DNA of 64,000 nt from a virus. The position numbers and the translations under genes were made by a program. The notes beneath the pieces were generated by a model. It saw only the letters and a program-made list of their open reading frames with translations, was not told the origin of the DNA and searched no databases. The stretch spans positions 1-64,000 of IMG/VR virus record IMGVR_UViG_3300010354_006541, one strand, 5' to 3'. How positions within the stretch are numbered: the first letter of the stretch is position 1; each line of letters starts with the position of its first letter. Shown here in pieces: positions 33,806 to 58,366 of the stretch.

Positions 33806-33994
33806 CCAATGTCTAATGACGTTGGCAATAATAAAAAGACAGGTAATCACATGTATAATTACCCAAAAGGTTTTTAAGAATAGTGCTATACGTGCTTCAC
33901 GAACAGTTAAAATAGGGACATCCGGACGATCTTCATCCGTTTGCCCCATCAGGTGACCAGTGGCTCTGGCCCATATTTTTTCTAAACTGTTCAT
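33803..33994 (-). CDS. Small membrane protein
   Basis: A 63-residue protein with a conserved-looking N-terminus ([20 protein letters not shown]) and a membrane helix in the last third ([21 protein letters not shown]). It overlaps queD by 4 bases. This type of small membrane protein is seen next to metabolic genes in marine T4-like phages; no function is known. Confidence 0.6.
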
Positions 33995-34518
33995 CCTTCG
34001 TAGGTCGCTGAATTAGCACCATGTTCAAATACTTCTACAGATTTAATACGGACACTTGGGTTGATAGGATAACGCATGTTACCACTGCCCAGTAATTCTG
34101 CCATTTTGTCATAGCACATCTTAGCAAACATTTCGCATCCGACAGCAGGAACAATACGCAAGTCGCAGATACCCTGTCGACGATATGGCTCTACCTGTAC
34201 ACGTTCTGGATTTCCGTCATGCTCTGGATTTGAACTCCAGCCTGACATTTCTTTGAATCGATCTAACATTGGATCATCTTCGGCGATTACCAAAGTGTGA
34301 TCAAACATATGATCGGCCCATGCTTTGAATTCTTTGAGACCGCCGAAGTCCATACACCAGTTTTTGTCATCTAGTGTATCACATTCAAATATTAGTTTGA
34401 TACCGATTGAGTAACCATGTAGTGTTGAACAATGACTGTGTGTGGCACGCCACTGTCTAAAGCAACATGACAGACCTCTGTCATTGCCGTAAGTTTTTGT
34501 TGAATAGAATTTCGCCAT
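33991..34518 (-). CDS. queD: 6-pyruvoyl-tetrahydropterin synthase / QueD family enzyme
   Basis: A 175-residue PTPS/QueD family protein. The catalytic Cys region is ATHSHCSTLHGYS; the usual HGH zinc motif reads HGY here, so one of the three zinc histidines is replaced. Other signatures are WCMDFGGLKEF, FDHTLVIAEDDP and the C-terminal VEVFEHGANSATYE with the purine-binding Glu. QueD makes carboxy-tetrahydropterin on the way to preQ0 and queuosine, or to 7-deazaguanine DNA bases in phages. The start has an ideal AGGAGG. Its leader folds as a pseudoknot (34555-34602). Confidence 0.88.
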   Translation of the reverse strand: MAKFYSTKTYGNDRGLSCCFRQWRATHSHCSTLHGYSIGIKLIFECDTLDDKNWCMDFGGLKEFKAWADHMFDHTLVIAEDDPMLDRFKEMSGWSSNPEHDGNPERVQVEPYRRQGICDLRIVPAVGCEMFAKMCYDKMAELLGSGNMRYPINPSVRIKSVEVFEHGANSATYEG

Positions 34519-34554
34519 CTCTTGCCTCCTGTAAAAATTAAGCGAGTAAGTTTG

Positions 34555-34602
34555 ATGACACGCAGAGTATTTAAAGAGGGTTGAGCGTCATGTAAGTCCT
34601 CT
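34555..34602 (-). ncRNA. Candidate H-type pseudoknot leader of queD (riboswitch-like)
   Basis: The predicted 5' leader begins about here. Stem 1 is AGAGG (34598-34602) with CCTCT (34575-34579). Stem 2 is ATGACGC (34585-34591), which lies in the loop of stem 1, with GTGTCAT (34555-34561); all 7 positions pair, one as G-T. This gives an H-type pseudoknot about 25 bases before the Shine-Dalgarno. PreQ1 riboswitches have such topology and control que genes, but the sequence is not a standard preQ1-I, so the ligand is open. Confidence 0.4.
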
Positions 34603-34610
34603 ATAGGATT

Positions 34611-34639
34611 ATTATACTACAGAGATATTTATTTTACTA
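34611..34639 (-). promoter_or_regulatory. Sigma-70-type promoter for queD
   Basis: Minus strand TAGTAA (34634-34639), 17-base spacer and a perfect TATAAT (34611-34616). Transcription would begin near 34604, so the leader would start right at the first arm of the pseudoknot. The -35 box is weak. Confidence 0.55.
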
Positions 34640-42982: not shown

Positions 42983-43839
42983 TCACTGGTGCTTCGGGCC
43001 TAATAGGCAGAGAAATATGCAGACAACTATCTGGTCGTTTTTTAGTAGTAGGTGTAGATAATAATTTTAGATACCCTTCGTATGTTCCTGAATGCACATT
43101 TATCAAATCAGACTTGATTGAATATTTGAATAATACTACAAATAATTTCAAGTTTGTGTTTCACATGGCTGCTATAAACGGTACTGAGTATTTTTATAAG
43201 ATTCCAAATACACTTATAGAAAACAATGTTAGCAATGATATAGCAATTTTTAATTTTGTTAAAAAGAATAAATCGTGCAAGTTAATCTATGCTAGTAGTA
43301 GCGAAGTAATAGCAGGTACAGATAATTTTCCTACAGCAGAAGAAACTGACGTTCACATAGAGAATATACATAACCCTCGATGGAGTTATAGGATTCCTAA
43401 AATTTTATCAGAAAATTATTTGTTTAACAGCGATATTGATTTTCTAATTGCAAGGTTCTTTAATGTCTATAGTGAGCACAGCGGCCCAGGGCACTTTGTT
43501 TACGATATTATAAACAAGATAAAAGGCAGCGATTATACGATAATCGGTCATGACGAGACTAGATCCTTTTGTTATGTTGAAGATGCTGTCACGGCATTAT
43601 TGCACATATACCGACAGACCAACAGAGAAGTGATCAATATAGGCAGCGATGAAGAAATAAACATCTTAGAAGCCGCTAACATTCTAGCAGACAAACTAGG
43701 CTATAAAATACAATGGAGACTGACTCCTGGCAGAGAAGGTAGCGTTAAAAGACGTATGCCTAATATAACAAAGTTAAAGAATATTCATCCTGAGTATAGT
43801 CCAAGGTCTTTTAAACAGGTAGTTGAGGAAAAATTTTAA
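42964..43839 (+). CDS. NAD-dependent sugar epimerase/dehydratase (extended SDR)
   Basis: A 291-residue extended SDR. The NAD motif is VTGASGLIGREI at the N-terminus, the catalytic Ser lies in YASSSEVI, and the YxxxK pair is SYRIPKILSE (Y142, K146). RFFNVYSEHSGPGHF and the C-terminal PRSFKQVVEEKF are typical of sugar-nucleotide epimerases of the GalE/WbpP group. Substrate unknown. It overlaps the radical-SAM gene by one base (TAATG). Confidence 0.9.
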   Translation: MAEKILVTGASGLIGREICRQLSGRFLVVGVDNNFRYPSYVPECTFIKSDLIEYLNNTTNNFKFVFHMAAINGTEYFYKIPNTLIENNVSNDIAIFNFVKKNKSCKLIYASSSEVIAGTDNFPTAEETDVHIENIHNPRWSYRIPKILSENYLFNSDIDFLIARFFNVYSEHSGPGHFVYDIINKIKGSDYTIIGHDETRSFCYVEDAVTALLHIYRQTNREVINIGSDEEINILEAANILADKLGYKIQWRLTPGREGSVKRRMPNITKLKNIHPEYSPRSFKQVVEEKF

Positions 43840-44819
43840 TGCAGAACTTTGAATCTATTCCGTTTGAGCGCATAGTAAAGTTTGGGCAACGCACTATGAT
43901 GGAAAGACCTTTGTTTTCTGTCAGTTGGATACTAGGGCGATTCTGTAATTATAACTGTTCGTACTGTTGGCCTTATGCTAGGTCTGATAGACAAGACTAT
44001 CAAACTATAGAAGCCTACAAAAAGACTATAGATGAAATCAAAAGTCAAGCAAGACAAAACGGATTTACACAATTTCATTGGAGTTTCAGTGGCGGCGAAC
44101 CTACAGCCTATAAAGGTCTTTTAGAGTTAATTGCACATTTAGACGACGGGATGCAAACACCATATCAAAGTTTGCATATGACTACTAATCTCAGTCCAGG
44201 ATCTAAATGGTGGAAGTCGTGGTGCTCTGCTTCTGAAATGAATGCTCGACGAAGTATTACAGCGAGTTATCATTCTGAATTTGCTAAAGAACAAGAATTT
44301 GGAGATAAGTGTCTCCAATTAATGTATGATGGTGTTTATGTAACTATAAATCAGGTCATGGTACCTGAGCAATTTTTTCAATTGTATGAACGATGTGCGA
44401 GATTTGTTGAAAGAGGTATTAATGTTACTCTTAAACCTCAGAGTGATCCTACCGCTAGTTTTGTAGTCGATGGTTATACTGAAGAGATGCTTAAATTAAT
44501 GCGGACTGGGTTCCCTCAAGAATTTCGAGGAGAAGAAATTTATCAAATAGCATTGTACGATAATGATAATGTTGAACATCTGTTTGATCAGGCTGAAAGG
44601 TTTAATGCTTTTGGATTTAATAAATTTAAAGGATGGACCTGTAACAGCGGTTATCAAAGTATGATTATTAGAGGCAATGAAGTTAAAAGATCTTACAGTT
44701 GCCACGATCAACCATTAGGAACATTAACAGAAGGATTCAAATTGTTTACAGAACCTCAAGCATGTATGACTCCAAGTTGTGTTAGTTCCGCAGATTCGAA
44801 GATACCAAAATGCAAATAG
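43839..44819 (+). CDS. Radical SAM protein 1
   Basis: A 326-residue radical SAM enzyme. The [4Fe-4S] motif is FCNYNCSYCW (C36, C40, C43), and the SAM-binding GGEP follows in WSFSGGEPTAYKG. The C-terminal part has further cysteines (GWTCNSG, RSYSCHDQPLG, CMTPSCVSS, KC at the end), like a SPASM-type auxiliary cluster. Enzymes with this layout often modify peptides or sugars. It overlaps the next gene, a methyltransferase-like protein, by 10 bases. Confidence 0.9.
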   Translation: MQNFESIPFERIVKFGQRTMMERPLFSVSWILGRFCNYNCSYCWPYARSDRQDYQTIEAYKKTIDEIKSQARQNGFTQFHWSFSGGEPTAYKGLLELIAHLDDGMQTPYQSLHMTTNLSPGSKWWKSWCSASEMNARRSITASYHSEFAKEQEFGDKCLQLMYDGVYVTINQVMVPEQFFQLYERCARFVERGINVTLKPQSDPTASFVVDGYTEEMLKLMRTGFPQEFRGEEIYQIALYDNDNVEHLFDQAERFNAFGFNKFKGWTCNSGYQSMIIRGNEVKRSYSCHDQPLGTLTEGFKLFTEPQACMTPSCVSSADSKIPKCK

Positions 44820-45430
44820 ACCTCGAACACCTACACTATTGGATGTGTGCTATCCGTGAAAGCAAAGATCCACTTCGTACCCTTGACGCCTTCTGGAAAG
44901 GACAGTTAAAAAGCAAAGAGTGGCTGATAGAGAATTTGGTATGTTACATCTATCCAGAGCGCAACAAAGAATTGAATTTTCCGTTAACTGTTGATATTCA
45001 CGGCGGATGGGTAGGGGTGTTAGCCAGTATGTTATTCCAAAGTGCTATTCCTATCAAACATATTCGCAGTATTGACATAGATCCTGAGTGCGAATCTGTG
45101 GCCACAATGATGAATAAAAAAGAAGAAATGGAAGGAAAGTTTCGTGCAGTAACCGCAGACATGTGTATGTTTCGTAGCGATGCTGATATTATTATTAATA
45201 CAAGTTGTGAACATATAACGCAAGATAAGTATGACATATGGCTCAGCGGCCATCCTCAAAACAGCCTATTAGTCCTTCAAAGTAACGATTACAATATTCC
45301 AGAACATGTAAGGATTGCTAATTCTTTAGAAGAATTTATAGAACAATCGAATGTTGATGTGCTATGGGCCAGAGAATTAGAACTACCGTTGTATAAAAGA
45401 TTTATGATCATAGGAAAGAAAAATGTTTGA
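44810..45430 (+). CDS. Methyltransferase-like Rossmann protein
   Basis: A 206-residue protein. The sequence TVDIHGGWVGVLASMLF followed by HIRSIDIDPECESVATMM has the spacing of motifs I and II of class-I SAM methyltransferases. ADIIINTSCEHI would be motif IV. The first glycine motif is unusual (HGGWVG). The partner genes, an rSAM upstream and a 2OG oxygenase downstream, suggest a shared substrate. It overlaps both (10 and 8 bases). The methyl acceptor is unknown. Confidence 0.65.
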   Translation: MQIDLEHLHYWMCAIRESKDPLRTLDAFWKGQLKSKEWLIENLVCYIYPERNKELNFPLTVDIHGGWVGVLASMLFQSAIPIKHIRSIDIDPECESVATMMNKKEEMEGKFRAVTADMCMFRSDADIIINTSCEHITQDKYDIWLSGHPQNSLLVLQSNDYNIPEHVRIANSLEEFIEQSNVDVLWARELELPLYKRFMIIGKKNV

Positions 45431-46022
45431 AGAAATAAAATATCTAGAGTACCCAAAAATTTCTGTTTTCAGAAACGTACTTACGCCAGAAGAATGTAAA
45501 CACTTTGTTGAAAAATATGATAATGCTATGAATCCTAACGCAGGATTAGAATCTAGAGAGCAGACCTACGGACAGATCACTGAAGAAGTTGAACAACGAT
45601 CTATTAGCGAAAATACCGACCCCCTAGATAGAGAATTTTTCAAGCAGAAAATAGTAGAAATGATAGGAGTACCTATTTCTCACATTGAAGCAGGCGACAT
45701 CTATAGATACAATACTAATCAATATTTCGGCCTACATCATGACTATCCTTACGATACCAAAGTCGTTCCTTACTATGCAAAGGGGGGAGACCGTAAGGCT
45801 ACAGCAATTTTTTGGTTGAACGAAGGCTATGAAGGTGGTAGGTGTACCTGGCCAGAGTTAAATGTTACAGTAGAGCCTGAGTTAGGCGGAGTAATGTATT
45901 TTGAATATGATTATCCGGATGAAAAGGTAAATTGGTCCACCATCCACGAATCATTGCCCGTCACTAAAGGAATAAAATGGATCGCCGCCTTCTTTCTAGC
46001 CAACGGACCTAGAGTAGAATGA
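45423..46022 (+). CDS. 2OG-Fe(II) oxygenase, prolyl-4-hydroxylase type
   Basis: A 199-residue P4H-like dioxygenase. The iron ligands are H105 and D107 (YFGLHHDYPYD) and H175 (TIHESLPVTKG), with K182 as probable 2-oxoglutarate anchor. GDRKATAIFWLNEGYEGGRC and FEYDYPDE are typical core strands. It would hydroxylate a protein or small-molecule substrate with O2. It overlaps neighbours by 8 and 4 bases. Confidence 0.88.
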   Translation: MFEEIKYLEYPKISVFRNVLTPEECKHFVEKYDNAMNPNAGLESREQTYGQITEEVEQRSISENTDPLDREFFKQKIVEMIGVPISHIEAGDIYRYNTNQYFGLHHDYPYDTKVVPYYAKGGDRKATAIFWLNEGYEGGRCTWPELNVTVEPELGGVMYFEYDYPDEKVNWSTIHESLPVTKGIKWIAAFFLANGPRVE

Positions 46023-46720
46023 ACATAGATAATTGGAAGCCTTTTTTCAAATTAGATGCTGCTGGGACTGAATGTATGTCGCAGCAAACTTACGAACCTT
46101 TGTTTAATCCCGAAGGTACTGTGTTTTGTGCTAATTATGACTGGCTTAACAAATATCAACGATTAGAGGATTCTATAAGGCCGCTTTACACCAAGGAGGC
46201 TGTGGATTATTTCTTTGATCAAGAAGTAAAATATATTTTAGAGTATAGAGATCATTATTTTATGCCTAAACTTTTAGACATAGACTATCTCAAAAAAAGA
46301 ATCTTTTTCCAATGGCATGGCGAAAGTTGTAATCATATGCTGTATGGCAGCAAGAATTTAGATTATGTTTGCCCTGATTGGAAAGAACAGATTAAAAATA
46401 TTTTAGTAGATCTACACAAATCCGGAACGTACAAGTTAACCATGTACCCTCATTGTCATTTTATAGATACTGACGGAATCATGAAGTCAATAGACTGGTA
46501 CGGTTGTATTCCTGTTAAAAATTATTGGGTAGATGCTGTATGGATGGATAGTATTATTCATCATACAGCCAAGTTTAGATTAGAAGAAACCGGCGATATA
46601 ATAGATGGAAAATATAATCTAGAACGAATGTTTAAAGGTTCTATGGGCAAACATGTAGTATGGGGCGATCAGGATATGAAATATATCTACAAAGAAATTT
46701 TTGGAACAGACCCCGAATGA
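46019..46720 (+). CDS. Kinase-like-fold protein, paralogue A
   Basis: A 233-residue protein related to the 56323-57018 product. Shared order: an acidic helix with EVKYILEYRDHYFMPKLLDI, a hydrophobic strand (RIFFQWHGES), PDWKEQIKNILVDLHKSGTY and YPHCHFIDTDGIMKSIDWYG. The last part looks like the catalytic and metal-binding loops of aminoglycoside/LPS kinase folds (xxNFxxxDGxxKxID), with key residues changed. A kinase or a kinase-like binding role is only inferred. It overlaps both neighbours by 4 bases (ATGA). Confidence 0.5.
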   Translation: MNIDNWKPFFKLDAAGTECMSQQTYEPLFNPEGTVFCANYDWLNKYQRLEDSIRPLYTKEAVDYFFDQEVKYILEYRDHYFMPKLLDIDYLKKRIFFQWHGESCNHMLYGSKNLDYVCPDWKEQIKNILVDLHKSGTYKLTMYPHCHFIDTDGIMKSIDWYGCIPVKNYWVDAVWMDSIIHHTAKFRLEETGDIIDGKYNLERMFKGSMGKHVVWGDQDMKYIYKEIFGTDPE

Positions 46721-47292
46721 CTATCTACATCGGTAATACTGGCGATCTGATTGATTGGGATACAGTTATTAGAACTTGCCAGTCCAGAAACGACCCAGAT
46801 GTTAATACCGTTACATCTGTAGTAGATCGTTCCGAAGCACAATTTCATACAGATGAAAAGTTATTAGGATCCTACCACAATGTAATAGGTACGTGGCAAA
46901 AAGCAGGTTATAGATTAGATGATATCAGTTGGCTAGATTATTATCCTGGGCAGCATTTTCCTTTAGAAGTTCAAACAATATTTTCTGAAATTATCAAGGC
47001 CAACCCATTAAGAGTCTTTATCAGCGAAGTATTTCCTGGAAAGATTATTCCTTATCATTGGGATGTAGAGGATAAGGAAGAAGAATGGTTAGCGCAATAC
47101 GGAATGCTTTATAGATACGTATGTTGTATAGACAAGCCAAGACCGGCTAGTGTTTTAGTTTTTGATAAAGAGGCATTATACTATAATAAGCAGGGAGATA
47201 TCTTTCAATGGGACAGTTACAAAGATTATCACTCGGCAGCAAATGGTGGTGAGTTCCCTCAATACTATTTCCACTTTTTAGGTTATAAATGA
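46717..47292 (+). CDS. Aspartyl-hydroxylase-like 2OG-Fe(II) oxygenase A
   Basis: The ATG at 46717 overlaps the upstream TGA (ATGA) and replaces an earlier in-frame ATG inside the upstream gene. The 191-residue product has the HxD pair H114/D116 (IPYHWDVED) and distal H172 (DYHSAANGGE), with the core strand VFISEVFPGKI. It resembles the cupin-like Asp/Asn beta-hydroxylase group. It is adjacent to a paralogue (47289-47831), and the two share N-termini with IGNTGDLIDW and IGICDVIDW. Confidence 0.8.
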   Translation: MTIYIGNTGDLIDWDTVIRTCQSRNDPDVNTVTSVVDRSEAQFHTDEKLLGSYHNVIGTWQKAGYRLDDISWLDYYPGQHFPLEVQTIFSEIIKANPLRVFISEVFPGKIIPYHWDVEDKEEEWLAQYGMLYRYVCCIDKPRPASVLVFDKEALYYNKQGDIFQWDSYKDYHSAANGGEFPQYYFHFLGYK

Positions 47293-47831
47293 TCAAGCAT
47301 ATTGGAATATGTGATGTTATAGATTGGAATAATCTAATAAAACACTTAGAGAATACCTCTCCTACGTATGTTGGACCTAGTCACAAGGAAGGAGATCCTA
47401 TACCTGGATTGAACGAAGTTACAGATATATGGAAACGTGCAAATTTTAAAACCGTACACGAGGGCGGCAATGTAGGTTGGGATATGTTTGTTTCTGGGGA
47501 TAGTTTTAGTAAAGAGATACCTGAAAAATTTTGTGAGTTTGTAGGATTAACTTCATATAACAGTTGCTGGATCAGTCGAATACATATAGGACATTTTAGT
47601 CCTTGGCATTGGGATGTTAATGACGACGAAGTTGAGTTATCTCTTAGAACGGATATAAGAAGGTTTCACTGCCATATTAGTCCACCTGCACATGGGCATA
47701 TTTTAATAGTTGAAGATCAATGTTTCTATAATCAACAACAGGGATCAGTCTATGAGTGGCCTAGTAGAAAAAGTTGGCATGCTGGAATGAATTCAGGTTT
47801 GACCCCTAAGTATCTTTTTAATATTTGGTAA
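47289..47831 (+). CDS. Aspartyl-hydroxylase-like 2OG-Fe(II) oxygenase B
   Basis: A 180-residue paralogue of the gene just upstream. The HxD pair is H107/D109 (SPWHWDVND) and the distal His is H164 (SWHAGMNSG). The core is RIHIGHFSPWH and RRFHCHISPPAHGHILIVED. The stop of this gene is 1 base from the start of the next rSAM. Substrate unknown. Confidence 0.8.
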   Translation: MIKHIGICDVIDWNNLIKHLENTSPTYVGPSHKEGDPIPGLNEVTDIWKRANFKTVHEGGNVGWDMFVSGDSFSKEIPEKFCEFVGLTSYNSCWISRIHIGHFSPWHWDVNDDEVELSLRTDIRRFHCHISPPAHGHILIVEDQCFYNQQQGSVYEWPSRKSWHAGMNSGLTPKYLFNIW

Positions 47832-47832
47832 T

Positions 47833-48858
47833 ATGTATCCTAACAATATCACAGATCTTCATATAGAGTTAACTGACCGATGTCAGGCCAGTTGTCCTAT
47901 GTGTGCTAGGAATGTAAATGGTGGGAAAGAAAGATCGTTCGTGGGGCAACACGAAATAAAATTAGATGTTTTTAAACAATGGTTTCCTGAAAACTTTTTA
48001 ACTAGTTTAAAAAATTTTTATTCGTGCGGTAATTACGGAGATCCTATAATTGCACAAGACTGTTTAGAGATACATGACTATGTAAGATCTGTGAATGATA
48101 CATGCCATATTGGAATACACACTAACGGAAGTGCTAGAGACACCGGATGGTGGAAAGAACTTGCCGGCTCTTTAGGACAGAATCATATGTGTACTTTTGG
48201 TATAGACGGTTTTGAAAACAGTCATGTCTTATATCGAAGAGGAACTAATTGGAGAAAAATTATAGATAACGCTTCTGCATTTATTTCTGCAGGCGGCAAG
48301 GCATCTATAGATTGTTTAGTATTCAAACATAATCAAAAAGAATTAGATGAATTCAAGAAACAGATGTTAGATCTAGGATTTCTTAATATTAATTTTAAGT
48401 ATACTAGAAGATTCTATGACATGCAGACATATCCTGTAGAAGATAAACAAGGAAATATAGAATATTATCTAGAACCTGCTGTACAAGAATCTGTTGTAGA
48501 ATTTTTACCTTTAGAAAAAATTAGTAAAGATATTTCATTATGGGAAAAGAAAGTTTCCGAAACCGCAATAGATCCTGCCTGTATTAAGAAAAAAGAAATT
48601 TATGTGGACAGTAGAGGAAATGTATTTCCCTGCTGCTGGATAGGTTCTGATTGGGTAGAACAACCTATCAAAGAGTCTTTACCTATACAAAAATTAAGAA
48701 ACTTAGTAGTTCAAGATACCAAATTAAAATTTAAAGATTTAGGTGTACCGAATTTATCATTCAATAGTGTTTACGATTTACCATGGAATGATCTAAATAA
48801 CGAACTACAGAGATTAAAACCCTGGACCTGTGTGAAGAATTGCAATGGAAGAAAATGA
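47833..48858 (+). CDS. Radical SAM protein 2 with SPASM-like C-terminus
   Basis: A 341-residue rSAM. The cluster motif is DRCQASCPMCARN (C17, C21, C24). The C-terminal third has YVDSRGNVFPCCWIGSDW and WTCVKNCNGRK, which fits a SPASM/twitch auxiliary Fe-S site. Proteins of this group act on peptides, carbohydrates or protein-bound groups. It overlaps the next rSAM by 14 bases. Confidence 0.9.
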   Translation: MYPNNITDLHIELTDRCQASCPMCARNVNGGKERSFVGQHEIKLDVFKQWFPENFLTSLKNFYSCGNYGDPIIAQDCLEIHDYVRSVNDTCHIGIHTNGSARDTGWWKELAGSLGQNHMCTFGIDGFENSHVLYRRGTNWRKIIDNASAFISAGGKASIDCLVFKHNQKELDEFKKQMLDLGFLNINFKYTRRFYDMQTYPVEDKQGNIEYYLEPAVQESVVEFLPLEKISKDISLWEKKVSETAIDPACIKKKEIYVDSRGNVFPCCWIGSDWVEQPIKESLPIQKLRNLVVQDTKLKFKDLGVPNLSFNSVYDLPWNDLNNELQRLKPWTCVKNCNGRK

Positions 48859-50263
48859 AATTTATTGGATGCAGTCTGGAACTACTAAGTTAGGATTGTG
48901 GCAAAACAAAATAGCAGAAGCAAGCGGAAGTAAAACATTTTGTATACTTCCTTGGATACATTTTGCTACTCGCCCTAACGGAGATATGCGTCTATGCTGC
49001 TCAGCAAATGCCAGCGGTGCAGGTAATGATCATACAGTAGGACTTGTAAAAAACGAAAACGGAGTTCCTGCTAACTTCGGAAAAGAAACACCTATGAGCG
49101 CATGGAACAACGAATATATGAAATCAGTTCGTAGGATCATGTTAGAAGGAAACATTCCTACAAGTTGTTCTAAGTGTTTTCAAGAAGAAGGCAAAGGTGT
49201 GGCCAGTAAACGTGTATGGGAAACCGGCACGTGGATGGAAGAAGGTATAGATATCGACGACCTACTTACAAACACTCAAGAAGATGGTACTATTCCGGAT
49301 AGATTAGTTTATTTAGATCTTAGATTGGGACATACCTGCAATTTAAAATGTGTTATGTGTTCCCCACATGACAGCAGCCAATGGGTCGGGGATCACAAAA
49401 AGATATATCCTCTGTTTCAACACAAGGCCCTTCAACAACAGATGGCTTGGAACAGAAAAGATTTTAACAACTTTTGGCATGAAAATCCAGATTTCTGGGA
49501 TGAGATGTACAAACAAATACCTAATCTCAAACAGGTATATTTTGCAGGTGGCGAACCTTTAATGATCAGAGAACATAAAATGTTCTTAGAAGAAATTATC
49601 AGACAAGGATATGCAGATAAAATTTTAATTCGTTATAATACCAACGGATTGTTAGTAGATGAAGATATAATCGATCTTTGGACTAAGTTTAAAAAAGTCA
49701 AAGTAGGTTTTAGTATCGATGCTTGTAGCGATAGAAACTATTACATAAGATATCCCAGTGACTGGGCGACCATCGAAAAGAATCTGCACAGGCTAGATAA
49801 CACACCAGCCAATATACATGTTAGTGTAGCCACTGCCATACAGATCTTAAACATTAAACATTTACCAGATTTTGCTCGTTGGAAGATACAGCAGAACTTC
49901 AAGAAAGTAAATTTTGACAATGTTACAGGCGGAATACAGGCAGGTGGCGGTATCTTCAATATGCATCTGTTGTATATTCCTACTTTCCTTAGCATCAGAT
50001 GTTTGCCGCCTGAGGATAAAGCAGAAGTAAGACGCAAGTTTGCAGAGTTCGCTAATTGGCTGTATGTTAATTATAGACAGGACGAGGACTTCTGGAAAGT
50101 AAATCCATACGGATGGAAGCGATGGCAAGCGGTTTTAGATTTTATGGATGCGGAAGATCATACGCATTTACTTCCTGCATTTAAAGAGTACATCGATAGA
50201 TTAGATCAACTAAGAAATACAAATTTTAAAAATGTATTTCCAGAATTACAACATTTAACATGA
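48845..50263 (+). CDS. Radical SAM protein 3, twitch type with N-terminal Cys cluster
   Basis: A 472-residue rSAM. The main motif is HTCNLKCVMCSP (C165, C169, C172). Before it lies a separate N-terminal segment: SKTFCILPWIHFATRPNGDM, RLCCSAN and a later CSKCFQEE pair. That gives C33, C51/C52, C108 and C111, a twitch-like auxiliary cluster placed N-terminal. AGGEPLM is the SAM-binding loop. It is a paralogue of the 52113-53378 gene. Overlap with the next gene: 4 bases. Confidence 0.9.
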   Translation: MEENEIYWMQSGTTKLGLWQNKIAEASGSKTFCILPWIHFATRPNGDMRLCCSANASGAGNDHTVGLVKNENGVPANFGKETPMSAWNNEYMKSVRRIMLEGNIPTSCSKCFQEEGKGVASKRVWETGTWMEEGIDIDDLLTNTQEDGTIPDRLVYLDLRLGHTCNLKCVMCSPHDSSQWVGDHKKIYPLFQHKALQQQMAWNRKDFNNFWHENPDFWDEMYKQIPNLKQVYFAGGEPLMIREHKMFLEEIIRQGYADKILIRYNTNGLLVDEDIIDLWTKFKKVKVGFSIDACSDRNYYIRYPSDWATIEKNLHRLDNTPANIHVSVATAIQILNIKHLPDFARWKIQQNFKKVNFDNVTGGIQAGGGIFNMHLLYIPTFLSIRCLPPEDKAEVRRKFAEFANWLYVNYRQDEDFWKVNPYGWKRWQAVLDFMDAEDHTHLLPAFKEYIDRLDQLRNTNFKNVFPELQHLT

Positions 50264-51243
50264 ACGAAATTATAAGAATAGATTCAAATGTTGATTCTAA
50301 TTTTTTAAGAATAGAATTGTTTCTTAGCAATGTTTGTAATTATAAATGCTGGTACTGTTTTCCTGGCAGTAATGAAGGAACACATAGGTGGCCGAATTTA
50401 GAACCGTTAACTAAAAATCTTTCATTTTTATTAAATTACTATAAAAATAATCAAAATAAAACAAAATTTTTATTACATATAATCGGCGGAGAGCCTACAG
50501 TATGGCCTAACATAGGGCCTTTTATTAAACACTTCAAAGATAACTTTGACGTTTTAGTGAGTATATCAACAAATGGTAGTAGAACACTACGATGGTGGGA
50601 CGACAATGCACAGTTATTTGATCACGTAATGATTAGTTGCCATCATCAGTATGTTAATACTGATCATATAATATCAGTGGCAGATTTACTTTATAAAAAA
50701 AATATTAATCTTACAACTATGGTTTTGATGGATCCTCACAAATGGGATACATGTCTTGAAATAATTGATCAATTAAAATGCAGTAAGTACAGGTGGCCTA
50801 TCACTGTGATAGAGGTATTTCATAAAACTATAACATATACTGACGATCAGAAGAAATTCATTTCTAGGTCATTAAAAAGAATACCAAATCTTTTTTATTG
50901 GTTTAGATCTAAAAAAATACCTGACACAAAATCTACTGTGGTATATGACAATTACAAAAAAATTAAAGTTTCAAATAATTGGCTGTCTTTAAACGATCTA
51001 AATAGATTTAAAGATTGGAAATGTAATCTAGGAATAGATACATTTTTTATTAACAAGGTCGGAGATCTACAAGGCGCCTGCGGCGAAAATCTATATGACT
51101 TAAACTACAAGTTTAATATATTAGATGAAAACTTCATAGAGAAATTCTCGCCTACTATTCTTCCTACTACCTGCCACAAAGAAATTTGCTACTGCCAACC
51201 TGAAATTAATACAACAAAATATATTCCTATAACGCCTGTTTAG
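50260..51243 (+). CDS. Radical SAM protein 4
   Basis: A 327-residue rSAM with NVCNYKCWYCFPG (C26, C30, C33) and IIGGEPTVWP. The C-terminus has DWKCNLGIDTFF, GACGENLYDL and TCHKEICYCQPE, probably auxiliary-cluster ligands. It resembles rSAM 1 and the 51227-52120 gene. Its 3' end overlaps the convergent rSAM 5 by 17 bases; no terminator is visible. Confidence 0.9.
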   Translation: MNEIIRIDSNVDSNFLRIELFLSNVCNYKCWYCFPGSNEGTHRWPNLEPLTKNLSFLLNYYKNNQNKTKFLLHIIGGEPTVWPNIGPFIKHFKDNFDVLVSISTNGSRTLRWWDDNAQLFDHVMISCHHQYVNTDHIISVADLLYKKNINLTTMVLMDPHKWDTCLEIIDQLKCSKYRWPITVIEVFHKTITYTDDQKKFISRSLKRIPNLFYWFRSKKIPDTKSTVVYDNYKKIKVSNNWLSLNDLNRFKDWKCNLGIDTFFINKVGDLQGACGENLYDLNYKFNILDENFIEKFSPTILPTTCHKEICYCQPEINTTKYIPITPV

Positions 51244-52120
51244 TTAACGGAATATCAGCAGCACATGTACACCAATTTCTGGTACATATAATAGGATCTT
51301 TAGGAGCAGCAAACGTACCTTTGTATATGTTGCCTAGGCTACCGCCCACTCTACAGGTAGCACGATGTACCTCGCCATCCCAATTAATCATAAGACTTTC
51401 AAGACCAGCATTACAAGTCCAACCTTTGAACTGATTCATATGTTGTTTAATTACATCATTGGCGTGAATGATCTGTTCGTCGTTTATACGACAATTAGGT
51501 TTCGCTGTAGCATCTTGCTCTAAGATCCATTCTAAGTCTTTCCCCTCATACCGAAGATCGTCAAATACGTTATGATCTCCTTCAGTCCAGCGTATACGAC
51601 GAACAGCAAATTTAATTCCTATGTCTTTAAATGCTTTAACGACATTTCGAACATGATCCATCTTATTATGGTGCGCCATTACGTTAACAAAAAATTCTCT
51701 TTCTGTGTTATCGTAATACTTCATAATTGTATCGACTATTCTAGTCCAATCATGTTCGAAATGCAAACTAAACACAAGATGGTTGAAATACATTTCATTT
51801 TCTAGATACCATCGATAGCCTCGTGTTCCGTTTGTTGTTATGTTAACCCAAAAAATATTTTTGCGTTTAAAATAATCTAGTAGAGATTCTATGTCAGGGT
51901 GAACACAAGGCTCACCGCCTGTAAGACTGATCCTTAATGGCTTATCCAGTTCGCAGAGTCTGTCAACAGCCGATTCTAAAATATTAATATCGGTATGAGG
52001 ACTAAAATTATCATGTATTTCTGATGGACAGTAACTACAGTCGTAGTTGCAACGTTTTCCAATATTCCATTCTACTTTAACCTGATCTTGATGTGGCCAT
52101 ACTGAAGTTATCTTATGCAT
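51227..52120 (-). CDS. Radical SAM protein 5
   Basis: The ATG at 52120 (MHKITSVWPHQDQVKVEW) overlaps the upstream stop by 8 bases and gives 297 residues. The cluster motif is RCNYDCSYCPSE (C24, C28, C31) with LTGGEPCVHPD as SAM loop. C-terminal GWTCNAGLESLMINWDGEVH, TCRVGG and CTRNWCTCAAD give SPASM-type ligands. First of the two genes read leftward from rSAM 6. Confidence 0.9.
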   Translation of the reverse strand: MHKITSVWPHQDQVKVEWNIGKRCNYDCSYCPSEIHDNFSPHTDINILESAVDRLCELDKPLRISLTGGEPCVHPDIESLLDYFKRKNIFWVNITTNGTRGYRWYLENEMYFNHLVFSLHFEHDWTRIVDTIMKYYDNTEREFFVNVMAHHNKMDHVRNVVKAFKDIGIKFAVRRIRWTEGDHNVFDDLRYEGKDLEWILEQDATAKPNCRINDEQIIHANDVIKQHMNQFKGWTCNAGLESLMINWDGEVHRATCRVGGSLGNIYKGTFAAPKDPIICTRNWCTCAADIPLTKQAL

Positions 52121-53378
52121 AGGCAGCAAACTCCGGAACAGCATCGAGCAAACTTTGATTTCTTGTTATGTCTAATTTACGATTAAAGTCTAAGAATTCT
52201 AACCATAAATGGCTTTGGTCTTTGGCGTTAAGATAGTTAATGTTGTCCTTGATCTGTTGTCTTGTTATTTTTTCTAACAACGCATTCTCAGTTATAGCAG
52301 GAAAACTAAACAGTCGTTGTTCGACTGATTTTAATCTATTAATTGCTTCTTCTTTTAAGGGTTGAGGTAAAACCTGAGCAGATAATACATTGGGATAACT
52401 CACACGATGACTATAGAATACTATGCCCATTTCATTGATAAAATAATCGATGCACTCAGCGGCTTGTAATATGTTTCCGGCCTGTGCGGTAAATGCTCCT
52501 ACTATTCTACTAATGTTAGGCAATGATTTTATTTCTTTGATATTTTTTTCAACTTCGCTAAAATTACTGTTACTGCGAATGTAATTGTAAACATCGTGAA
52601 TGCCGTCAATAGAGACGTTAACGGCAATGCTTCTAAAATGTGGCCAATAGTCATGTATGGTTCTTCCTTTGCTTATGCCCAACGTGGTTCCGTTTGTTGC
52701 ATATTTTAATTCAATATTCTTACCATAGGGTTTAAGCATGTCTAGTATCTTATAATGCTGAGGATCCATTAGAGGCTCCCCGCCAGCAAATTCTACTCTA
52801 CGGAAATAAGGAATTAATTTTTCAAAATCTTTCCACCAGTTATCTGTATTGTCAAAAGGTCCTATATATTGACCCGGAACTCTTACCAGTTTAGAAACTG
52901 TAGGAACTAGATAATTATTTTCTTTTTCGTAGAACGGTTTAACTTCGTCCCAATCTTTCCAACTAGTACTATCTAAAGGATTGCACATTCTACATTTAAG
53001 ATTGCAAAGATTGTTCAATTTGATTTCCATCGTTGGAAATTCAAAAGGCATAGTGTAGTTTTCAGTTAACTGGTCTAAGGCATTTGGATATAGATTAATA
53101 CGTGCCTCAGGAATAACACCATTAATATGTCGTTGACGTAAACTCTCAACACCTTGGTCTTCTAAATCGAAGCAGGGTTTACAAACTTCAGGACGTTCGT
53201 TGTTAAGTATCTGCTTGCGAACATTTTTCATAGTTTCGTTGTTCCATACAGACTCTAAACTTTCTTCTTGAATCCAACCTATAGGAAGGCTACGGCAACA
53301 AATTTTAATTGCACCATCTTCTCTGGTTGCCAACCCTGTAAAAGGGTGCATACAAAATGTTTTACTTTGATTGTTCAA
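52113..53378 (-). CDS. Radical SAM protein 6, twitch type with N-terminal Cys cluster
   Basis: A 421-residue paralogue of rSAM 3. N-terminal segment: SKTFCMHPFTGLATREDGAI, KICCRS and CKPCFDLEDQG. Main motif: NNLCNLKCRMCNP (C125, C129, C132), with FAGGEPLMDPQ as SAM loop. Having two twitch-type rSAM in one island suggests two related reactions. Overlaps the PP-loop gene upstream by 17 bases and rSAM 5 by 8. Confidence 0.9.
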   Translation of the reverse strand: MNNQSKTFCMHPFTGLATREDGAIKICCRSLPIGWIQEESLESVWNNETMKNVRKQILNNERPEVCKPCFDLEDQGVESLRQRHINGVIPEARINLYPNALDQLTENYTMPFEFPTMEIKLNNLCNLKCRMCNPLDSTSWKDWDEVKPFYEKENNYLVPTVSKLVRVPGQYIGPFDNTDNWWKDFEKLIPYFRRVEFAGGEPLMDPQHYKILDMLKPYGKNIELKYATNGTTLGISKGRTIHDYWPHFRSIAVNVSIDGIHDVYNYIRSNSNFSEVEKNIKEIKSLPNISRIVGAFTAQAGNILQAAECIDYFINEMGIVFYSHRVSYPNVLSAQVLPQPLKEEAINRLKSVEQRLFSFPAITENALLEKITRQQIKDNINYLNAKDQSHLWLEFLDFNRKLDITRNQSLLDAVPEFAAYA

Positions 53379-54042
53379 TGGCCCACGACCTTTCTTTGCA
53401 CCAGAAGCAGTTTTCGCAAATGGGAATATTCTGTCCCGGTAAGTATGTTTTATAATTTATACCCTCGAATTCACCTTCACAACTTCTTGTAATTTTTAAC
53501 AAGTCTAAAATATCATTCTTATAATACTGATTAATGATCCAATCTTTTTTAGTATTAACAAATGGATGACAGATAGCAACACCGTCGTGTAGAAAATATG
53601 GAGGGATGTGTCCCTGATTACGATCTTCTAATGCACCTTGTATTTCTATATCCGGATTCTGATTGATACCTCCATACAACGCATCTAATTTATATTTGTG
53701 CGCTATGTACTCGTTGTGTGATCGTAATATGATTTGATTACCGCTTTTTAGTTTGCCATACTCGTCTATAATATTTGGACCTTTATCAGCCCATTCTAGT
53801 TCAGGCGGTATTAAATTTCTATGAACAAAAAATTTATTTTTAAATCGAGTTTTAAACCAATCGATAACTTGATCGGCTACATATTCCTGCCAAGGCCTCG
53901 TTTTCCATAATCTTATTTGATTGGTAAAATGGATTTCTGCGGTGGTACTAGAACATATTAGATACGAAAGTAAAGCACTATCTGCTCCACCGCTAATACT
54001 AATGCCAATTTTAGTCCATTCTGGTCTTAGGTAAAGTTCCAT
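53362..54042 (-). CDS. PP-loop ATP pyrophosphatase (QueC/asparagine-synthase-like)
   Basis: The ATG at 54042 (MELYLRPEWTKIGISISGGA) is preferred over an in-frame upstream ATG because it is 5 bases after a TAAATA box. The 226-residue enzyme has the PP-loop SGGADSALLS. At the C-terminus SCEGEF and ICENCFWCKERSW give a C-x(n)-CxxCxxC pattern as in the zinc site of QueC. It activates a carbonyl or carboxylate with ATP to add nitrogen or sulfur. QueC itself makes preQ0, but the short length and sequence leave amidation of another substrate open. Confidence 0.78.
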   Translation of the reverse strand: MELYLRPEWTKIGISISGGADSALLSYLICSSTTAEIHFTNQIRLWKTRPWQEYVADQVIDWFKTRFKNKFFVHRNLIPPELEWADKGPNIIDEYGKLKSGNQIILRSHNEYIAHKYKLDALYGGINQNPDIEIQGALEDRNQGHIPPYFLHDGVAICHPFVNTKKDWIINQYYKNDILDLLKITRSCEGEFEGINYKTYLPGQNIPICENCFWCKERSWAIEQSK

Positions 54043-54081
54043 GAATATATTTAATCCATTATAGTAGCATATAAATATTTC
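54043..54081. promoter_or_regulatory. Back-to-back late-type promoters of a divergent pair
   Basis: 39 bases separate the divergent start codons. Minus strand: TAAATA (54048-54053), 5 bases, ATG at 54042. Plus strand: TATAAATA (54070-54077), 4 bases, ATG at 54082. There is no Shine-Dalgarno on either side. The two halves form an imperfect inverted repeat (CATGAA...TTCATG at the edges). Confidence 0.55.
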
Positions 54082-54753
54082 ATGATTTCCGAAACCGAAT
54101 ACTGTGTTGATTCTAATATCATCGAACTCGCCAGGCAAGAGTTAAAAAACTTTGAAGGTAAGACTGCTCTTAATCAGCCAACAGGAAATTTTTTCTATGA
54201 TCCGTGGGTCATAAAGGATCAATTTAAAAAAACTGTTTGGGAAGAAATACTTTCAACATTAAACTTCGATCACGGAGAGGCTAGAATAATTGTCTTAGCC
54301 CCAGGCGAAAGTTACATGGCACATGCAGATATTGACGATCGATATCATTTAAATTTGCAGGGGAACTATAGTTTCTTAATAGATGTTTTGAATCAACATA
54401 TGTATCCTACAGTTTCCGATAACAGGTGGTATGAAATGAATGCTGGACAGATTCATGCTGCTACCAATTATGGAGAAACGATCAGGGCTCAACTTGTGGT
54501 AAGAAAACTATTAGTCCGGACACAATTAGATAAATTTGTACATATTTCGATTACTCCGGCAAGTGAACGTTATGATTATAGGTATAGGTTTGATAATGAT
54601 ATCAGTCCATGGTTGAATTCTATGAATAAGTTGAATAAAATAAACAATTTTCAATTTAGTAATGCTTCAGTAGAATTTGATGCCGCCGAAGAATTAATTT
54701 ATGATCTTGTAAATTTTGATAAAAATATATTTGCTATAACTTATGAATTTTAA
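54082..54753 (+). CDS. 2OG-Fe(II) oxygenase-like protein
   Basis: A 223-residue protein. The HxD pair is H81/D83 (GESYMAHADIDDRYH), the distal His is H125 (GQIHAATNYGE) and R135 is the likely 2-oxoglutarate anchor (IRAQLVV). The strand RIIVLAPGESYM precedes it, as in Asp-hydroxylase-like folds. The C-terminal 80 residues are an extra helical and acidic region. It overlaps the first mini-SDR by 11 bases. Confidence 0.75.
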   Translation: MISETEYCVDSNIIELARQELKNFEGKTALNQPTGNFFYDPWVIKDQFKKTVWEEILSTLNFDHGEARIIVLAPGESYMAHADIDDRYHLNLQGNYSFLIDVLNQHMYPTVSDNRWYEMNAGQIHAATNYGETIRAQLVVRKLLVRTQLDKFVHISITPASERYDYRYRFDNDISPWLNSMNKLNKINNFQFSNASVEFDAAEELIYDLVNFDKNIFAITYEF

Positions 54754-55207
54754 ATGCGTAATTACTGGCGATACTAGAGGTATAGGAAAAACTTTCAAAG
54801 ATCATTTTTTATCTAAGGGTTGGGAAGTTATAGGTTTTAATAGCAAGACAGGTCTAGAGAAAGTTGTTGATGCGGCAGTGGGTTGTGATCTTTTTATCAA
54901 TAATGCTTATGCAGACGGTATTCAGATAAAATTTCTTAATCAATTATACAATAGTGTCGGAAAGATGATTGTATGTGGAAGTGTTGCAGCATTTTATCCT
55001 GATCCTAAATTACCTGTTTATACATATCATAAAAAAGAATTAGCAGAAAGAGTAAAAGAATTAGCCAGATCGAATATCTTGATGCTACATCTTAGTGCCA
55101 AGGGTTATAATAATAAAGAAGCATTGATAAAAATTATTGATCTATGGCTAGAATTTCCAATAATAAATGAAGTGTCTTTTGATCCTACAGGAAAACCAAA
55201 TGAATAA
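54743..55207 (+). CDS. Mini-SDR oxidoreductase A
   Basis: A 154-residue, shortened classical SDR. It keeps the NAD(P) turn (VITGDTRGIGKTF), the NNAY strand end (DLFINNAYADG), the catalytic Ser (MIVCGSVAAFY) and a YxxxK pair (YTYHKKEL). SDRs normally have about 250 residues; here the linkers and C-terminal lobe are trimmed. It is the tandem paralogue of the next gene, with an 8-base overlap. Confidence 0.8.
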   Translation: MNFKCVITGDTRGIGKTFKDHFLSKGWEVIGFNSKTGLEKVVDAAVGCDLFINNAYADGIQIKFLNQLYNSVGKMIVCGSVAAFYPDPKLPVYTYHKKELAERVKELARSNILMLHLSAKGYNNKEALIKIIDLWLEFPIINEVSFDPTGKPNE

Positions 55208-55799
55208 AAAGATTGTTATCACAGGTCATACAAGCGGAATTGGCAAAGCAATCTACGACAAATTTAAAGAAGTTAGTTGTAGAGATATCGTGGGACTCAG
55301 CAGAAGTAACGGATACGATATAGATAAGGACTTTGACAAAGTAATTGCCGAAGCAGAAGGTTGTGAACTGTTTATTAATAATGCATATAGGGATACGCAG
55401 CAATTAAAACTTTTTCACGCATTGAAAAATAAAGTTGATATGATGGTTGTAATGGGTAGTGTTAGTAGATTTTATCCCGAATTAATTCCTACTCAATATG
55501 TACATGATAAACAAGAATTAGCAGAAGCCTGCAGATTAGAAAGTATCAATCCTAACGGTATTCCTATACTACATCTAGATTTAAGTTTCATTGAAGGCAC
55601 AGTAGTGCCAGAAAATCATCCCACTGCATTTGTGAGTGATTATAATACATCGAAAGACGACATCGTCGACACTATTATATTTTGGGCTCAGAAGCCTTCT
55701 ATAAGACAGATCGAGTTTAGATGGAAACTTACACCTTATGTTTTGTCCGAACTAAAAAGAATTAATCCTAATTTAGATCCATCTAGGGTAGCGTTCTAG
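55200..55799 (+). CDS. Mini-SDR oxidoreductase B
   Basis: The ATG at 55200 (MNKKIVITGHTSGIGKAI) overlaps the end of the previous gene; 199 residues. Motifs: TGHTSGIG, LFINNAYRDTQ, VVMGSVSRFYP and the YxxxK pair in TQYVHDKQELAEAC. It is longer than its tandem paralogue by a C-terminal segment that ends RINPNLDPSRVAF. The 3' end overlaps the convergent GNAT-like gene by 27 bases. Confidence 0.8.
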   Translation: MNKKIVITGHTSGIGKAIYDKFKEVSCRDIVGLSRSNGYDIDKDFDKVIAEAEGCELFINNAYRDTQQLKLFHALKNKVDMMVVMGSVSRFYPELIPTQYVHDKQELAEACRLESINPNGIPILHLDLSFIEGTVVPENHPTAFVSDYNTSKDDIVDTIIFWAQKPSIRQIEFRWKLTPYVLSELKRINPNLDPSRVAF

Positions 55800-56330
55800 A
55801 TTTTCTAAAAATCTATCTCCGTGTATCTTCCATACAGTTTGATCTGTATGCCTATAATGAACTTCTTTAATACGTTCTACTATTCCTATTTTTTCTAAAG
55901 TAGGAAAATAATATCTATGTACTAGCCTCTGACTTGCTACTTTACTATCATTGGATGTAGCATAGATATTATCCTTACCTGCCCATGCAATACACGTAGG
56001 AAGTAGGAACTGATCTGTTAAGTTTTGATGTTCGGCAATTAATCGTTGAGGAGTTATCAACCCACCGTGTGGTCTTGCTGTACCAAATGTGCATGTTCTG
56101 GCCAACACTCTGAAACTACCATACCCCATGACATCATCAAAAGTGTGTGCAACAACACTACCTATGGCCTTTTCATCTTGATATAGTATCCATGCTTTCC
56201 ATAATTTTTCGTTACGAAAGCAATCTATCATAGCCTTTTGACTAGAATTGTTAGCGAACCCTCTTTCTCCGGCTTCTTTATAAAAATCGGAAAGTTCTAA
56301 CTCTGGAGTCCATTCAACGATATTATACAT
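55773..56330 (-). CDS. GNAT-like acyltransferase candidate
   Basis: A 185-residue protein. The N-terminal half reads as an acyltransferase core: AMIDCFRNEKLWKAWILYQD, EKAIGSVVAHTFDDVMGYGS and FRVLARTCTFG. The usual Q/RxxGxG/A acetyl-CoA loop is not clear (TARPHGGLITPQRL is the best match), so the assignment is weak. The C-terminal half (VWKIHGDRFLENLERYPRW) is unusual. It overlaps the kinase-like paralogue B by 8 bases. Confidence 0.45.
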   Translation of the reverse strand: MYNIVEWTPELELSDFYKEAGERGFANNSSQKAMIDCFRNEKLWKAWILYQDEKAIGSVVAHTFDDVMGYGSFRVLARTCTFGTARPHGGLITPQRLIAEHQNLTDQFLLPTCIAWAGKDNIYATSNDSKVASQRLVHRYYFPTLEKIGIVERIKEVHYRHTDQTVWKIHGDRFLENLERYPRWI

Positions 56331-57018
56331 ATAACTTCTTACATTCGTCCATGAAGTCTGCCGGAAAGTTTGTTTTAAAACTCTCGAATGCTAATAATTG
56401 TATATCTTTGAAAGGGGTCGGCCTATCTACATCGATGCCCATAGCAGACATCTTAGGAAATAGATCTGCTTGTCTGTCTTCGCTGATGTGACTCATTACG
56501 TCTCGTAAACTAATCATCGGATCGTTATCTTTGTAGCAGAAAAAATAGTTGATACTCTTTAGTTTACCATTGACTATAAAGTAACTGCTAGGATGCAGAC
56601 TATATTTGTAAATTCCTAACACCTTGTGTGCTTTAAAAATTTCAAACATTTGTTCACGCCAGTCGGGCAATACACTATCGTAATCTTGAACTATAGGACC
56701 GGCAAGTTGCCAGAAGTCTGCACCTTCGATATCAAAATATAATTTTCTTTTTTCCAAATCTATATTAGTGATATTCGGTACTAGGTCAGGATATGAGTTA
56801 CGCATCTGGGTGATAAAATTTACTTCTCGCAACCATTTTTCTTCCATTAACTCTGGATCAACAACTTGATTTTGACCTTTATGATAATCAGTATCGTTAT
56901 GATACCATTGACAAAATGTTTTTCTATCTTTACTGATAAGGCTAGTGTAAATCAAATTATTACGACACAGCCCTTTACCTGGAACATCATTATAGTAGTA
57001 TTCGAATTCTGTTTTCAT
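56323..57018 (-). CDS. Kinase-like-fold protein, paralogue B
   Basis: The ATG at 57018 (MKTEFEYYYNDVPGKGLC) lies 5 bases from a TAAGTA box; 231 residues. It shares with paralogue A (46019-46720) the order EVNFITQMRNSYPDLVPNIT, RKLYFDIEGADFW, LPDWREQMFEIFKAHKVLGI, YKYSLHPSSYF and NGKLKSINYFFC. The Asp of the metal loop is replaced by Asn. The shared design suggests two substrate-specific members of one small family. Function only inferred as kinase-like. Confidence 0.5.
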   Translation of the reverse strand: MKTEFEYYYNDVPGKGLCRNNLIYTSLISKDRKTFCQWYHNDTDYHKGQNQVVDPELMEEKWLREVNFITQMRNSYPDLVPNITNIDLEKRKLYFDIEGADFWQLAGPIVQDYDSVLPDWREQMFEIFKAHKVLGIYKYSLHPSSYFIVNGKLKSINYFFCYKDNDPMISLRDVMSHISEDRQADLFPKMSAMGIDVDRPTPFKDIQLLAFESFKTNFPADFMDECKKLYV

Positions 57019-57048
57019 GTACATACTTAGCGGATAAGTATGTACATG
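57016..57048. repeat. Perfect 14-bp inverted repeat holding both divergent start codons
   Basis: Arms 57016-57029 and 57035-57048 are exact reverse complements around a GCGGA spacer. Each arm carries TAAGTA-TGTAC-ATG reading outward, so both genes begin with the same element 27 bases apart. A second in-frame ATG lies inside each arm (57024 minus, 57040 plus). Confidence 0.8.
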
Positions 57049-57861
57049 ATTAGAGGTATTGGCGGTAAGCCCTACATAAATTTAGATCCTTTTTTGGATG
57101 TAAAAGGTTTTATAAATCTTCATGCAGAAATGTGTAAAGGATTCGCTTTGGCTAGAGATTATGCCAAAGAAGGAACTTGGATGAAGCCTGGCTTTGATCA
57201 AAGCAGAGGTAGTTATATTTGGAATTGGAAACCTATCTATAAAGCACATGAGGAGTATCTGGCATTACCAGACGATCATCCTATAAAGGTGCAGGGCAAA
57301 GAAATCTATCCTACAGATTTTAAGGACTATAAACAGCGCAATTTGTTTACACGTTATTTGAAAAGTTCTTTAGATGCCAATGATCCCTACATATATTATT
57401 TTTTATGGAACGAAGGCGATTGGAATGAACGTAATGCCGAACGTCAAAAGACTGAGGAAAGCCGATACTTTCCAGGTGTTGTCCGTTGGGTAGAAAATCT
57501 TCAGGAACAAGGTATCATAGATCGCATAGGTCGTGTGATATTTTTCCATTGTGATCATAATGGTAAAGCATTTGAACATAGAGATTTAGATGCAAATAAT
57601 GGTGTGTTTGAAAATGACTATTATACACCACACAATAATGAATTCATTCATATACGTTATAGAACTAGGCGAGGATTCTATATATGGGATCCGGATACCC
57701 AAGACAAACATTATGTAAACTCACATGCTACCTTTTGGAACGATCAAGATTGGCATGGAGGCGAATCAAGTCTTGAGCAAGAATACAGCCTACGAGTCGA
57801 CTGTAAATTTACACCCGAATTTAGACAGCGCATAGGTATAGATCATCTTAATTTTTACTAA
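57046..57861 (+). CDS. 2OG-Fe(II) oxygenase-like protein
   Basis: 271 residues from the ATG at 57046 (MIRGIGGKPYINLDPFLDVK). The HxD pair is H178/D180 (KAFEHRDLDANN), the distal His is H237 (QDWHGGESS) and R250 may bind 2-oxoglutarate (YSLRVDCKF). RVIFFHCDHNGKAFEH and the strand HIRYRTRRGFYIWDPD form the core. It is the largest of the eight oxygenases. It overlaps the next oxygenase by one base. Confidence 0.75.
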   Translation: MIRGIGGKPYINLDPFLDVKGFINLHAEMCKGFALARDYAKEGTWMKPGFDQSRGSYIWNWKPIYKAHEEYLALPDDHPIKVQGKEIYPTDFKDYKQRNLFTRYLKSSLDANDPYIYYFLWNEGDWNERNAERQKTEESRYFPGVVRWVENLQEQGIIDRIGRVIFFHCDHNGKAFEHRDLDANNGVFENDYYTPHNNEFIHIRYRTRRGFYIWDPDTQDKHYVNSHATFWNDQDWHGGESSLEQEYSLRVDCKFTPEFRQRIGIDHLNFY

Positions 57862-58355: not shown

Positions 58356-58366
58356 ATTTCTAATCT

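Follow-up and report, generated by a model that had tools for sequence, protein, structure and literature searches.

The queD leader of an uncultured phage contains a conserved pseudoknot that is, on balance, probably a phage-specific cis-regulatory RNA for queD translation, most likely a metabolite riboswitch. It was studied in a stretch of 64,000 nucleotides (nt), positions 1 to 64,000 of the 69.9-kb IMG/VR virus record IMGVR_UViG_3300010354_006541, referred to here as the window. The element is an H-type pseudoknot at 34555-34602 on the minus strand, it is present in hundreds of uncultured phages, and its conserved unpaired loop nucleotides appear aptamer-like.

From 5' to 3', the leader runs TATAAT-AATCCTAT-AGAGG-ACTTAC-ATGACGC-TCAAC-CCTCT-TTAAATA-CTCTGC-GTGTCAT-CAAACTTACTCGCTTAATTTTTAC-AGGAGG-CAAGAG-ATG, with stems P1 and P2 and loops L1 to L3 arranged as follows:

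34611-34616, minus: -10 promoter box TATAAT, read from the sequence, 8 nt upstream of P1
34598-34602, minus: P1 5' strand AGAGG, partner 34575-34579
34592-34597, minus: L1 ACUUAC, conserved CU at bases 2-3 as seen in the protein-selected leaders (see below)
34585-34591, minus: P2 5' strand AUGACGC, resembling a translation start sequence; P2 covaries
34580-34584, minus: L2 UCAAC, consensus UCA[U/A/C]C; the C preceding the P1 3' strand is conserved
34575-34579, minus: P1 3' strand CCUCU, partner 34598-34602
34562-34574, minus: L3 UUAAAUA-CUCUGC, 13 nt, consensus with three invariant A and an invariant UCUGC
34555-34561, minus: P2 3' strand GUGUCAU, the switching strand, partner 34585-34591 or the start codon region
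34525-34530, minus: Shine-Dalgarno (SD) sequence AGGAGG, read from the sequence, 24 nt after P2
34513-34519, minus: GAUGGCG, the AUG and flanking bases, to which the switching strand pairs in the predicted sequestering hairpin
34516-34518, minus: start codon ATG
33991-34518, minus: queD-like gene, PTPS family, 175 amino acids (Pfam PF01242, E 5.5e-16; PHROG 2389 QueD-like, E 9.7e-36)

An H-type pseudoknot upstream of queD had been proposed in the initial annotation, and both stems it described are present (34598-34602 with 34575-34579, and 34585-34591 with 34555-34561), as is the TATAAT box. The AGGAGG motif was present as well, at 24 nt after P2 rather than the ~20 bases given there. In the window P2 comprises 7 base pairs (bp), including one G-U pair. 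Since the TATAAT box lies 8 nt ahead of P1, the mRNA would be expected to start at or just before P1. A TATAAT-like box with at most one mismatch ends 6-9 nt ahead of P1 in 47 of 97 AUG-type leaders.

Conservation and covariation of the pseudoknot

When the single window leader was folded with a program for nested structures, nothing unusual emerged (z-score -0.45). Such a fold is uninformative for a pseudoknot, and the proof of the element is therefore comparative. Selection by similarity of the QueD protein alone yielded 80 viral loci, one of them incomplete, and the same element was found at a similar distance ahead of the start codon in all 79 complete leaders. In the alignment of these protein-selected leaders that was built without structure (A1), C28 before the P1 3' strand as well as A36, A38, A40 and U42-C46 of L3 were invariant, while U24, C25 and A26 of L2 were at least 90% conserved. 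Overall, the conserved loop nucleotides are NCU in L1, UCA-C in L2, and A-A-A and UCUGC in L3.

Both stems covary and are conserved; the lack of covariation that the initial annotation had named as speaking against its proposal was clearly not what we found. In the protein-selected set, the covariation score over both stems was 0.421, with 92.7% standard pairs and 45 cells in which both sides of a pair had changed. Shuffles scored 0.156 (standard deviation (sd) 0.018), and slid controls did not exceed 0.074. P1 was 99.5% paired in this set, and two-sided changes occurred at four of its five pairs. Because P1, but not P2, was part of the model that guided this alignment, the alignment leans towards P1. 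For 24 equal-length members (A3, taken from motif-filtered leaders) the score was 0.632 versus 0.214. The MAFFT alignments A1 and A2 were rejected for stem placement because they misplaced the P1 5' strand, the length of L1 being variable; a covariance model from equal-length members (A3, R1) fixed the placement.

The forms of P1 include AGAGG/CCTCT, AGCGG/CCGCT, TGCGG/CCGCA, AGTGG/CCACT, ACCGG/CCGGT, ATCGG/CCGAT and AGTCG/CGACT. On a quick QueD protein tree, P1 pairs 1-4 needed at least 19, 10, 34 and 3 changes, in a leader set that required P1 pairing. This set, which was used for the tree and for the helix tests, also required CU after P1, whereas the 79-leader set and the gene-blind pattern scan described below did not. 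For P2, native pairing reached -7.8 versus -6.5 (sd 0.16) when partners were swapped between leaders. A further stretch downstream of P2, CAAACUUACUCGC or CAAACUUGCUAC, shows strong conservation within one group of AUG-type leaders (for instance at 34541-34554, minus strand, in the window) and has no obvious partner.

Association with queD and occurrence in phages

To look at the element independently of its gene, IMG/VR was scanned with a gene-blind pattern consisting of L2, L3 and one base of the P1 3' strand. Among at least 120 pattern matches listed, 108 were preceded by a perfect 5-bp P1 partner, where 6.7 were expected (maximum 15 in 200 shuffles). Two further gene-blind scans gave at least 177 motif copies, 167 of these 177 ahead of QueD and three of the other ten incomplete. 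The counts from all three scans are lower bounds, the true number being larger. In the combined protein- and pattern-selected set, a QueD-family gene lay downstream in 181 of the 186 loci listed. The downstream genes other than queD encode radical SAM proteins (L010, L264, L336), cupins (L155, L268) and methyltransferase-like proteins (L167, L244) or are unassigned (L231, L292, L448), and some of these cases are overlapping copies of one contig. Of 40 virus records examined with the covariance model, 39 had a single strong copy each and the remaining one, that of L010, had two. There, a second pseudoknot copy (L010:1347-1395; also in L264 and L336) is located upstream of a radical SAM gene with a TTG start, ~1.6 kb before the queD copy. 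The element is consistently tied to the genes of one pathway, as is the case for riboswitches in general.

Phages use leader pseudoknots for protein autoregulation, one example being T4 gp32, which binds its own mRNA. With this precedent and the near-exclusive tie to one gene, QueD or another phage protein might bind the pseudoknot and control translation. We regard such a protein-bound autoregulatory leader as quite improbable: the motif is found ahead of unrelated genes too (radical SAM, cupin, methyltransferase), the same invariant loops occur before QueD proteins that differ considerably in subfamily and N-terminus, and QueD belongs to an enzyme family for which, to our knowledge, no RNA-binding role has been described.

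A strict pattern, covering only the GCGG form of P1, was also run against 84,980 bacterial and archaeal species and gave a single match. This match lies on a phage contig within a metagenome-assembled genome, and the contig has tail-region and other genes in common with the motif-bearing phages. Eight named queD phages had neither the motif nor a leader; their queD is tightly packed among genes, adjoining other que or folE genes in six of them. A blastn search of the leader against named phages returned only chance matches to the tail that resembles a ribosome binding site. With a lone cellular match on a phage contig and named phages devoid of the motif, the element is so far known only from uncultured phage sequences.

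Pairing with the start site and predicted switching

The initial annotation did not mention that the P2 3' strand has an alternative partner at the start site, a feature which, as judged from the leader sequences, points to an ON switch. Of 145 distinct leaders, 141 have a switching strand complementary to the start codon or SD sequence of their own gene, and the best helix covers the AUG in 95/145 and the SD sequence in 46/145. In the window, UGUCAUC (34554-34560) can form a sequestering hairpin of 7 pairs with GAUGGCG (34513-34519; stacking -11.0). Mean stacking of the sequestering helix over the 145 leaders was -11.2, versus -9.4 when start regions were swapped between leaders (sd 0.17; all 200 swaps gave weaker stacking), and fell to -6.2 when the switching strand was shuffled. 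The switching strand tracks the start region, with AAGUCAUC facing GAUGACUU, UGUCAUCU facing AGAUGACA and CCUAUG facing CAUAGG. Genes that begin with ATGACTT have the leader strand AAGTCATC (AAGTCAT), those with ATGACA have TGTCATC(T), and those with ATGGCA mostly have TGTCATC or TGCCATTG (TGYCAT type), while in another group of leaders the CCTATG...CATAGG pairing lies over the SD sequence.

P2 and the sequestering helix have at least 2 nt in common in 124 of the 145 leaders, and therefore cannot both form fully; the two are mostly mutually exclusive. In ensemble folds free of the pseudoknot, shuffling of the switching strand raised the probability of the AUG being unpaired from 0.24 to 0.42. 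At the sequence level, the expression platform of the leader and its aptamer fold would be incompatible with one another. No hairpin with a U-tract was apparent in the leaders, although no systematic terminator search was made; together with the position of many leaders close behind an upstream gene, this favours translational control. The anatomy is that expected of a translational riboswitch, and most simply of an ON switch. H-type aptamers such as preQ1-I and SAM-II generally bind their ligand as a pseudoknot, and in these leaders the pseudoknot state would free the start site whereas the alternative would hide it, which makes an ON switch the simplest reading.

Two competing helices of comparable strength (P2 approximately -7.8, sequestering helix -11.2 in stacking) could suffice for a ligand-free timing or folding element, in which a pseudoknot formed during transcription only delays or protects against start-site sequestration and thereby tunes expression. 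This would leave both the strictly conserved unpaired loop bases and the tie to queD unexplained, and we consider it very unlikely.

In leaders whose P1 is AGAGG, such as that of the window, CCCUCUUU of the P1 3' strand and L3 (34575-34579 region) can pair with the SD sequence AGGAGG at 34525-34530 in the nested minimum free energy fold. This pairing is a possible further OFF fold.

Known RNA families, pathway context and proposed mechanism

No Rfam family matched the window leader (cmscan; Rfam 15). For preQ1-I (RF00522, gathering threshold 39 bits) there was no match in the window at E values up to 10, while as a positive control the model recovered the Bacillus subtilis riboswitch. The best preQ1-I score at any motif examined was 12.5 bits, in one relative aligned as AGUGGU-CUUAAgcgUCAUCCCACUCUAAA; scores in other records were at chance level. 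The models for preQ1-II (RF01054) and preQ1-III (RF02680) did not match in the window either, the value in L169 being 16.3 bits (E 1.6) at a cut-off of 47. Hence, the search with the Rfam PreQ1 models that had been suggested as a check assigned no PreQ1 family to the element.

The likeness to preQ1-I is nevertheless considerable: both are H-type P1+P2 pseudoknots in leaders of the queuosine pathway, with a P1 of ~5 bp, a conserved C before the P1 3' strand and an A-rich third loop. In preQ1-I, the C of the UC or AC before the P1 3' strand reads the ligand (PMC11625349). Most phage leaders likewise carry UC (type I) or AC (types II and III) at this place, while L004, L012 and L054 have CC. PreQ1-I acts on translation in Gram-negatives, as the phage element is predicted to do. 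It may be asked whether these leaders are a divergent preQ1-I subtype, with preQ1 or preQ0 occupying the same pocket. We think this unlikely, although somewhat less so than control by a bound protein. Types I and III have UU directly after the P1 5' strand, where the phage element has NCU, and the phage L3 of 13 nt contains the invariant UCUGC as an extra. P2 itself takes up SD bases in preQ1-I (PMC11625349, PMC10622847), whereas the phage P2 is longer (up to 7 bp), covaries and leaves the SD sequence outside, and it is predicted to compete with a hairpin at the start codon or SD sequence, which would serve as the expression platform. Because of the absent UU, the absence of SD bases from P2, the extra UCUGC and a score far below 39, we do not file the element as preQ1-I. 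A mismatch of loops and tail with the preQ1-I consensus had already been suspected and was borne out. The likeness may reflect either common descent or convergence. PreQ1-II and preQ1-III are also pseudoknotted, translational and preQ1-sensing, and the phage element is likewise pseudoknotted and predicted to be translational; their HLout folds have four to five helices and about twice its size (PMC11625349).

The manA and wcaG RNA motifs of T4-like cyanophages are structured leaders as well; they lie upstream of auxiliary metabolic genes and come mainly from phage and metagenome sequences (PMC2864571). These resemble the queD element in being phage leaders of metabolic genes, but they have other structures and genes. 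Both are Rfam families, and cmscan reported no Rfam match on the window leader. No earlier description of the element was found in the open-access literature, with a 2017 list of 224 candidate RNAs being compared via Rfam only.

QueD acts between GTP and preQ0 (PMC10622847), and bases derived from preQ0 shield phage DNA from host nucleases (PMC6884629). FolE was present in 18 of 32 large motif-bearing records, and within ~5 kb of the motif there were FolE genes at 30 loci and QueE genes at 33 loci; for QueC, motif-bearing records gave weak matches only. The window encodes a divergent QueC-like PP-loop protein (53362-54138, minus strand; PHROG 1550, E 5e-6; no Pfam match) beside radical SAM genes, which together with queD suggests a preQ0-type pathway split across the phage genome. 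Given the role of QueD, the nearby FolE and QueE genes and the QueC-like gene of the window, the regulated step would belong to 7-deazaguanine synthesis, and a compound of this pathway is the first candidate for a ligand. TGT (PF01702) as a base-inserting enzyme was found in none of 20 records, though DpdA-type enzymes may escape the PF01702 model.

Several other features of these loci were noted. At a site where the cellular QueD family has HGH with the third zinc histidine, phage QueD carries HGY: this holds for the window queD (33994-34518), for 179 of the 180 motif-linked sequences whose motif was readable, and for 8/8 named phages checked. A phosphoribosyltransferase gene recurs near queD (25 motif loci, median ~570 nt before P1), and in Synechococcus phage BUCT-ZZ01 a xanthine-guanine phosphoribosyltransferase adjoins queD. 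The window also encodes eight radical SAM proteins within 19 kb (43839-62446), an unusual density, some of them with SPASM or other Fe-S domains:

43839, 47833, 48845, 50260 and 58367, plus: radical SAM genes
51227, 52113 and 61478, minus: radical SAM genes

In the mechanism we propose, a small-molecule ligand would bind at the junction of L2 (UCA-C) and L3 (UCUGC) and stabilise the P1-P2 pseudoknot; this ligand is probably a compound from the preQ0 pathway, either a 7-deazaguanine or a pterin. The pseudoknot would keep the P2 3' strand off the start site so that ribosomes can start (ON); without ligand, this strand would sequester the start site (OFF). We infer the identity of the ligand and the direction of the switch. 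Several points weigh against this interpretation. The direction depends on the pseudoknot being the ligand-bound state, which is assumed here, and biosynthetic genes are more usually subject to feedback repression than to an ON switch. P2 is short or lacking in 30 of 145 leaders (3 bp in 28, none in 2), L003, L090 and L105 have mismatches in P1, and a few motif copies lie ahead of genes other than queD. In addition, the swap and shuffle controls ignore kinship, and the set for the tree and helix tests had been selected for P1 pairing.

The initial annotation had offered a candidate riboswitch, either a variant or a new class. Its structure, conservation, covariation and association with queD stand (79/79 leaders; 0.421 versus 0.156), whereas the metabolite role is deduced from them and from the pathway. 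As a tentative proposal, the element may constitute a new, phage-only riboswitch class, namely a 45-50 nt pseudoknot aptamer that switches on queD translation in response to a precursor or product of the 7-deazaguanine route. By mimicking the start site of the gene, the P2 5' strand would set the aptamer and the ribosome binding site in competition for a single RNA strand, and the stem would have co-evolved with the first codons.

We found no report in the open-access literature of how phages regulate the pathway of preQ0-derived bases. The element is widespread in environmental phages and was missed by Rfam 15, and it makes regulation of this phage pathway testable with a 50-nt RNA. The strand common to the aptamer stem and the start codon, with the two co-evolving, would be an unusually clean example of expression platform evolution. 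If a ligand is found, the element would represent a viral rather than a cellular class of riboswitch.
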